The translations under genes were made by a program, and so were the position numbers. Positions 56,021-56,208 of a DNA stretch of 64,000 bases are shown one piece after another. Under the pieces are notes generated by a model. That model ran no database searches, had not been told where the DNA came from, and worked only from the letters and a program-made list of their open reading frames with translations. Position 1 is the stretch's first letter; every line of letters starts with the position of its first letter. Source of the DNA: Saccharothrix longispora (lineage in GTDB: Bacteria > Actinomycetota > Actinomycetes > Mycobacteriales > Pseudonocardiaceae). The DNA is taken from assembly GCF_030852425.1 (NCBI RefSeq), contig NZ_NSDM01000014.1, positions 1-64,000 on the forward strand. The letters run 5' to 3'.

Positions 56021-56103
56021 CGGAGAGGGCAGGATTCGAACCTGCGTGGGCGTGAACCCGTCCGGTTTCCCGGACCCCATTGGGCCGCTTTGGGTACCTC
56101 TCC
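56021..56103 (-). tRNA. tRNA-Ser-like gene without anticodon (copy 1)
   Basis: An 83-nt type II tRNA. Acceptor GGAGAGG/CCTCTCC is fully paired with discriminator G73 and no encoded CCA. The D-arm is CCC...GGG, with GG in the loop. The T-arm GCAGG-TTCGAAT-CCTGC is canonical and the long variable arm is GGGT-TCAC-GCCC. The arm that should carry the anticodon is G-TCCGG-GAAA-CCGGA-C: a 5-bp stem (plus a G26-C44 pair) closed by a GNRA tetraloop (56066-56069) instead of seven nucleotides. Exactly three loop bases are missing, so no anticodon exists. Long variable arm plus G73 mark it as seryl. It is co-directional with the downstream HDO gene. Confidence 0.85.
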
Positions 56104-56125
56104 CGACTTACCGGGCGAAAGGTGG

Positions 56126-56208
56126 CGGAGAGGGCAGGATTCGAACCTGCGTGGGCGCGAGCCCGTCCGGTTTCCCGGACCCCATTAGGCCGCTTTGGGT
56201 ACCTCTCC
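56126..56208 (-). tRNA. tRNA-Ser-like gene without anticodon (copy 2)
   Basis: An 83-nt tandem copy, 22 bp upstream of copy 1 in the same direction. It differs at only three positions: one in the D loop (nt 22) and two in the variable arm (GGGC-TCGC-GCCC, where copy 1 has a U-G wobble). The variable stem is therefore preserved or strengthened. The GAAA-capped arm (loop at 56171-56174), acceptor, T-arm and G73 are identical. Conservation argues for selection on a folded, chargeable tRNA rather than a decaying pseudogene. Confidence 0.85.

Follow-up and report, generated by a model that had tools for sequence, protein, structure and literature searches.

Why would a gene cluster for small-molecule synthesis carry two genes for tRNA-like RNAs without an anticodon? 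The question was raised by the window, i.e. the whole stretch of 64,000 nucleotides of Saccharothrix longispora DNA analysed here (contig NZ_NSDM01000014.1, positions 1 to 64,000). A first-pass annotation, made from the sequence alone, had described in it two tandem 83-nt type II tRNA-like genes with intact arms and G73 inside a biosynthetic cluster, and had proposed that their products can be serylated but cannot decode, forming a dedicated pool of Ser-tRNA for the DUF2156 enzyme encoded at 50.7 kb.

Structure of the two RNA genes

Both genes lie on the minus strand. The promoter-proximal copy (56126..56208, 83 nt) has a variable stem GGGC/GCCC, G73 and an encoded C74; the second copy (56021..56103, 83 nt) is located 22 nt downstream of the first and differs from it in the D loop and the variable arm. 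As read from the sequence, the acceptor stem of both RNAs has 7 bp, GGAGAGG/CCTCTCC, and is followed by G73. The sequence and the fold together indicated a normal D arm, a normal T arm and a 4-bp variable stem, and in the fold the acceptor and T stems have the normal 7+5 bp. Between the D and variable arms, both RNAs read G-TCCGG-GAAA-CCGGA-C, with neither an anticodon nor U33. Folding gave a full cloverleaf for both copies (z of -3.35 and -3.90; 0 of 200 shuffles were as stable), in which G26-C44 paired too, resulting in an anticodon-arm stem of 6 bp; on the fold alone, a somewhat larger loop with a shorter stem would fit too. The earlier description of the two genes was in agreement with the sequence, the ARAGORN output and the cloverleaf folds, and its reading of the arm as TCCGG-GAAA-CCGGA, without anticodon and U33, was borne out by the sequence and the fold.

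ARAGORN returned both genes as 'tRNA-???'. In a search of the own genome with the Rfam tRNA model, a check that the first-pass annotation had suggested, each window copy scored 36.8 bits, above the cut-off of 29, and the seven longest other tRNA matches among those listed (81-90 nt) scored 52.0-57.5 bits. A narrow Rfam scan again gave one copy 36.8 bits as tRNA; for the other copy the best model of the clan was tRNA-Sec, with 30.5 bits, under its cut-off of 47. A scan of the whole window at gathering level with fast filters reported no match for the two RNAs. The presence of all arms and the Rfam score above the cut-off identify both RNAs as type II cloverleafs, and G73 together with the 4-bp variable stem points to tRNA-Ser identity; G73 rules out Leu and Tyr identity. 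A decoding tRNA presents its triplet in a 7-nt anticodon loop that contains U33, in place of which we found the 4-nt GAAA loop, and the claim that these RNAs cannot decode follows from the missing anticodon. Since the host has ordinary tRNA-Ser genes with the anticodons UGA, GGA, GCU and CGA (ARAGORN, own genome), the window pair looks surplus to decoding.

Three other low-scoring tRNA-like genes (30.7-35.7 bits) were noticed in the own genome, at C1:18954-19097 and C3:2972-3042 (L047 and L048). Two of them are in tandem and at least two are Arg-like by ARAGORN; they possibly derive from a mobile element.

The azoxy cluster around the RNA genes

The VlmA homologue (50656..51660, minus strand), a predicted seryl-tRNA:hydroxylamine seryltransferase with a PF09924 (DUF2156) match, is 76% identical to its plasmid homologue, so that the DUF2156 enzyme at 50.7 kb proved to be a close VlmA relative. 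Next to it, on the plus strand, are a VlmH-like gene (51812..53047; weak acyl-CoA dehydrogenase domains, 73% identity to the plasmid VlmH homologue), a VlmO-like gene of the membrane N-N bond-forming enzyme type (53090..53602; 71% identity to the plasmid homologue, no Pfam match) and a VlmB-like gene (53724..54713; 80% identity to the plasmid homologue, a weak AurF match). With VlmA, VlmH, VlmO and VlmB homologues together in the window and near the RNA pair, the cluster is of the Vlm type, and the placing of the RNAs inside a biosynthetic cluster was confirmed. VlmA is described as moving serine from Ser-tRNA onto isobutylhydroxylamine (PMC12945691), in accord with the earlier statement that seryl-tRNA is the donor in valanimycin biosynthesis; in the same pathway the hydrazine and azoxy steps are assigned to VlmO and VlmB (PMC11705231). 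No match to the VlmR flavin reductase or the VlmL SerRS was found in the window at E 1e-8, and the host genome contains a single SerRS.

The RNA genes adjoin, here and in L031-L034, a gene for a haem-oxygenase-like iron redox enzyme (54895..55950, minus strand). On their other side are genes for a conserved small protein (56390..56770, plus strand; TCAG repeats upstream at 56326-56340), a PLP-dependent enzyme of the decarboxylase/aminotransferase-V fold (56916..58334, plus strand; TCAG repeats upstream at 56878-56892) and a SARP-type regulator with BTAD and Trans_reg_C domains (58411..59271, minus strand). The region 33905..43108 holds sulphate-assimilation genes (a CysN-like GTPase, two PAPS-reductase-type genes and a sulphite reductase) as well as SnoaL/TetR genes. 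One of the two PAPS-reductase-type genes matches the plasmid cysD, and cysD and PAPS reductase are common to the window and the plasmid clusters L031 and L034.

The minus strand has, at 56267..56292, a run of three TCAG units spaced 11 nt apart, 58 nt upstream of the first RNA copy. We take such 11-nt-spaced direct repeats to be SARP operators, and here they occur in a promoter of a cluster that also encodes a BTAD regulator, the combination expected of a SARP regulon. The motif TCAG-N7-TCAG was found at 12 sites in the window, with 0.84 expected: before the RNA genes, between VlmA and VlmH (51743..51815, plus strand, with one exact 3-unit site at 51790-51815), in front of the small-protein and PLP-enzyme genes (56390 and 56916), and in the regions of about 37, 42 and 49.5 kb. 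The outlying repeats suggest that the regulon spans about 37 to 59 kb. The SARP-type regulator at 58411..59271 is likely to activate the RNA promoter. The repeats at 37043-37114, 41886-41900 and 49505-49580 are near sulphate-assimilation, PKS and 2OG-oxygenase genes. The valanimycin regulator VlmI is called a SARP in a title cited by PMC4052509.

The RNA family and its association with VlmA

A search for relatives with hairpin arms, also suggested by the first-pass annotation, yielded a family of at least 151 distinct anticodon-less RNAs across several actinobacterial genera, the two of the window included; the first reading round had given at least 164 RNAs, at least 140 of them distinct, again with the window pair. 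BLAST against plasmids found the RNA in 14 Streptomyces records, 12 of which were opened, and a pattern scan of genome contigs found at least 119 RNA-bearing stretches. The genome collections held one genome per species, some of them drafts. The hosts are mostly Streptomyces, the others being Kitasatospora, Embleya, Streptacidiphilus, Streptantibioticus, Actinacidiphila, Micromonospora, Salinispora, Actinomadura and a Streptosporangiaceae metagenome bin. In an alignment of 18 members the acceptor stem, the T arm and most of the D arm were invariant, much of which was imposed by the search pattern. The pattern behind most relatives fixed acceptor and T-arm letters, so that relatives with another acceptor stem escape it, except in 40 VlmA neighbourhoods; there, a scan free of sequence in the acceptor and T arms, together with ARAGORN, returned family RNAs and one tRNA-Lys, and no other tRNA-like gene. 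The count from an early pattern, 2 of 397, is a lower bound, the minimum gap of that pattern being too long for the window's own copies. C74, the base after G73 and outside the search pattern, was present in 151 of 151 members, and the full CCA was encoded in 22 of the 151. A freer pattern, which left T-stem pairs 49-51 open, hit 57 places in 19 of 199 Streptomyces genomes, with the 5ʹ strand of the T stem reading GCAGG in 56 places and GCGGG in one.

The anticodon arm was parsed in 150 of the 151 RNAs (one, without the GGGG anchor, was left out). All of these arms were predicted to form hairpins, with 122 distinct sequences of 14 to 27 nt and a mean z of 2.54 in comparison to dinucleotide shuffles. 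The predicted loops were of 3 nt (21 arms), 4 nt (89), 5 nt (32), 6 nt (2), 7 nt (3) and 8 nt (3), and a 7-nt loop with U33 was found in none of the 150 folded members. The four-nt loops included 22 GNRA and 19 UNCG loops; GAAA was found in the window pair and one other parsed member, the remainder having other loops. The outer pairs vary on both sides, the second pair being A-T, T-A, G-C or C-G, in counts that lean on the fold. In a fixed-position scan, 12 members could make four to five of the five pairs around a 7-nt loop. Position 33 is T in one of the 12, but this member was predicted to fold with a 4-nt loop. The hairpin is thus kept and its letters are free, which is the opposite of a decoding loop. 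ARAGORN gave family members anticodons for Ser, Gln, Arg, Ala, Cys, Gly, Val, Pro, Leu and Asp; as these are spurious, family members may be mislabelled in genome annotations. The RefSeq locus-tag numbering has a gap at the RNA position in L032, L033, L034 and L038, and none at that position in L031, L035, L036 and L037. The gene table omits RNAs, and the gaps suggest that some family members are already annotated as RNA genes in RefSeq.

The promoter repeats are shared by the family. Among 136 distinct RNAs with 160 nt of upstream sequence (4 of 140 without it were left out), the TCAG units at 11-nt spacing numbered at least three in 87 and two in 22, i.e. at least two units in 109 of 136, in comparison to 0.3 of 136 in block shuffles. 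Many of the RNAs without repeats are, like the second copy of the window, not the first in a tandem array. In 90 of the 120 cases measured, the last TCAG unit and the RNA are 53-64 nt apart.

Linear plasmids and chromosome arms carry many of the RNA copies. The freer pattern gave 11 copies in S. griseofuscus, of which one is plasmid-borne and four are mirrored near both chromosome ends. From 4 to 11 copies scattered over chromosome and plasmids were noticed at L070, L073, L075, L142, L149 and L171 (S. griseofuscus) and in genomes G420, G424, G418 and G550; the anticodon arms of scattered copies mostly differ, and most of the copies examined have their own TCAG repeats despite the distance from the VlmA cluster. 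On L035 and L036, plasmids of NBC_01387 and NBC_01014, three RNA copies are near an extra alaS.

In the 199 Streptomyces genomes, VlmA was found in 38 (E at most 1e-40; up to 10 first-look candidates scored per genome) and the RNA in 18. All 18 RNA-positive genomes had VlmA, and none of the 161 VlmA-negative genomes had the RNA, at the E 1e-40 threshold and with the pattern scan. Fisher's test, which treats related genomes as independent, gave 2.0e-15, and 1.7e-12, on the same assumption, without G416, G418, G420 and G424, which were first met through RNA loci. VlmA was also present in 20 of 20 and, in a second set, 15 of 15 genomes picked for holding the RNA. G600, added by the freer pattern, has the RNA without VlmA at E 1e-40; a divergent VlmA (33-40% identity) is 2.3 kb from its RNA, directly beside which is a VlmJ homologue (47%). 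By the pattern, 20 of the 38 VlmA-positive Streptomyces genomes are without the RNA. The 149 RNA-bearing stretches formed 137 independent groups, 52 of which also hold VlmA. In these 52, the gap between RNA and VlmA was at most 501 bp in 36 and the two genes were divergent in 44. The other 85 stretches, mostly of 8 kb, are without VlmA, which was found elsewhere in the genomes checked; the pSCO1 plasmid record (L039, S. collinus Tu 365), in contrast, has one RNA copy, and VlmA is absent from that record. In S. atratus JCM 3386 (L086) the RNA is close to VlmA, and another S. atratus strain is given as the source of elaiomycin (PMC11705231).

A maximum-likelihood tree of 78 VlmAs (6 of 84 rows, being identical, and matches under 230 aa were left out) placed all 57 RNA-linked rows in one clade with a support of 100/99. 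The clade also holds five rows without the RNA, and all 16 rows outside it are without the RNA; the RNA label changes 4 times on the tree, in comparison to 18.8 in shuffles. One of the five RNA-less rows in the clade, L186, is on a 3-kb contig. The other four, L179, L183, L182 and L188, are on contigs of at least 56 kb and look like true absences in the available sequence, which makes the RNA dispensable for some VlmA loci. Homologues of VlmJ and VlmK were found at L179 and L183, which suggests that there is a serine pathway that does without the RNA.

An Ady1-like methyltransferase, a mark of azodyrecin clusters that in L175 matches PF04072, was found in 12 of 21 RNA-negative VlmA neighbourhoods and in 0 of 19 from RNA-positive genomes; the RNA-bearing L173 has a weak match of 35%. 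Clusters of the azodyrecin type share VlmA, VlmH and VlmO homologues with the window, but azodyrecin is proposed to draw Ala-tRNA from the cellular pool (PMC9379638), and the 12 VlmA loci with the Ady1-like gene are without the RNA. These clusters are probably alanine-using.

A SerRS gene was present in 9 of 19 RNA-positive and in 0 of 21 RNA-negative VlmA neighbourhoods. In a hand-chosen set of 20 genomes, a cluster-type SerRS, i.e. one 58-92% identical to the SerRS of L032 (other SerRSs, 39-48%), was found in 10 of 12 RNA-positive and 0 of 8 RNA-negative, VlmA-positive genomes (Fisher, 7e-4, with related genomes treated as independent). As the window's host has just one SerRS, this single enzyme would there need to serve the ordinary tRNA-Ser and the anticodon-less RNAs alike. 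Genome G526 has three SerRS genes, two of them cluster-type (C1:4446702, C1:5375336).

Proposed role and competing readings

We regard it as highly probable that the RNAs are non-decoding serine tRNAs dedicated to azoxy (valanimycin/elaiomycin-type) biosynthesis, which would be serylated by SerRS and feed VlmA. A predicted Ser-tRNA pool without a part in decoding, used by the DUF2156 enzyme, is strongly supported by comparative evidence: the idea of a dedicated pool gained from the genome-wide co-occurrence with VlmA, from the short gap (at most 501 bp) in 36 of 52 stretches and from the single VlmA clade. SerRS does not need the anticodon. From the sequences we infer a pathway in which the SARP regulator of the cluster would turn on the RNA along with other cluster genes via the TCAG repeats, and the transcript, once expressed, would mature like a tRNA, with CCA added. 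SerRS, supplied by many clusters themselves and in the window host presumably the single cellular enzyme, would then recognise the RNA by its G73, acceptor stem and long variable arm and charge it. VlmA would pass the serine on to an alkyl-hydroxylamine, and VlmO and VlmB would form the N-N and azoxy bonds. Because a bare hairpin replaces the anticodon, the charged RNA should be unusable by the ribosome and would constitute a private serine supply; such a supply, presumably of advantage, could be expanded by tandem or dispersed copies of the RNA gene. With somewhat less assurance, we consider it likely that there is a widespread actinobacterial class of anticodon-less serine tRNAs that serve as amino-acid carrier cofactors, with their own operator and transferase and often their own SerRS, and that SerRS, tRNA and VlmA form a channel parallel, and possibly orthogonal, to translation.

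The missing anticodon, together with the many copies on linear plasmids and chromosome arms, could also mark decayed tRNA-Ser pseudogenes, carried in the clusters or left by island integration. In such relics, however, one would have to account for a D arm, a T arm and a C74 conserved across actinobacterial families (the acceptor letters being imposed by the pattern), for hairpins kept with many different sequences and for a regular repeat in 109 of 136 promoters; moreover, no integrase was present among the annotated proteins of L031-L034, L037 and L038, and we consider decay very improbable. Nor does the conserved part look like that of a regulatory RNA, such as a decoy or sensor for SerRS or serine charging, or an antisense RNA acting via the hairpin, which would control the cluster and not donate serine. 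It is a tRNA body with G73 and C74, and its partner is a Ser-tRNA-using enzyme. The hairpin letters (122 forms in 150) are too varied for a common signal, and nearly half of the four-nt loops (41 of 89) are simple GNRA or UNCG caps. Regulation would fit a separate transcription unit with its own promoter, an exposed hairpin that differs from cluster to cluster and dispersed copies far from the cluster; on balance we find it improbable.

The RNAs might also be charged and then used by another enzyme of the cluster or for another purpose, e.g. lipid or peptidoglycan modification, with VlmA a mere neighbour. Other tRNA-using DUF2156 enzymes modify membrane lipids (PMC9437257), and there are the RNA copies near alaS in L035 and L036. 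Yet plasmid L035 has VlmA too, the RNA-positive genomes searched share VlmA as a partner, and the RNA follows a single VlmA clade, which leaves this reading with very little probability.

The valanimycin pathway, with its VlmL SerRS and VlmA, is the closest comparison: the window has VlmA, VlmH, VlmO and VlmB homologues and a SARP regulator, and many RNA-positive clusters have a second SerRS. Unlike that pathway, the window lacks a SerRS gene, and the donor of valanimycin is treated as ordinary Ser-tRNA(Ser), with no dedicated RNA mentioned in the available text of PMC4052509. In the same review, of 2014, the way in which Ser-tRNA is diverted from translation into valanimycin is called unknown, as are the tRNA identity elements of such tRNA-using enzymes in another review (PMC9976931).

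Dedicated non-ribosomal tRNAs and anticodon-free charged RNAs are each already known, and our RNAs share features with both. tmRNA is an aminoacylated tRNA-like RNA without an anticodon and is alanine-type; in contrast, the window RNAs are serine-type, have no mRNA part and form a full cloverleaf with D and variable arms. Allo-tRNAs and tRNA-Sec accept serine and resemble the window RNAs in the long variable arm and the unusual structure; one copy has the weak, below-cut-off tRNA-Sec match given above. However, allo-tRNAs are described as having a unique acceptor domain and a 6-bp D-stem (PMC11231383), whereas the acceptor and T stems of the window RNAs are normal.

The non-proteinogenic tRNA-Gly genes of S. 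aureus (cell-wall bridges) are likewise additional to the decoding set, and a non-ribosomal transferase is believed to use their products. These tRNAs keep their anticodons, whereas the window RNAs have none. Their escape from translation is attributed to weak EF-Tu pairs (PMC4052509, PMC9976931), and A51-U63 is described for them (PMC4052509). The window RNAs have A51-U63 too, in contrast to G51-C63 in four of four host tRNA-Ser and in one S. griseofuscus tRNA-Ser, which made escape from EF-Tu via the T-stem attractive. This idea was dropped: among the best-scoring 30 of 53 own-genome tRNA matches, A51-U63 was present in 11 ordinary host tRNAs, and the three T-stem pairs of the RNAs tied for the commonest set (5 of 30). 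The T-stem is therefore not distinctive, the same pairs being common in the ordinary tRNAs of the host.

An anticodon-less serine tRNA dedicated to an antibiotic pathway was not found in open-access full text, the scope of our search; within this scope, the earlier remark that no cluster encoding anticodon-less tRNAs had been described agrees with the literature. If the proposed role is true, the RNA family would offer a concrete and testable answer to the question of how charged tRNA is diverted into valanimycin, namely by a separate tRNA that the ribosome cannot read. The RNA may also serve as a sequence marker that parts most RNA-linked VlmA clusters from those of the azodyrecin type, and the family suggests that there are natural SerRS/tRNA pairs free of any decoding role.
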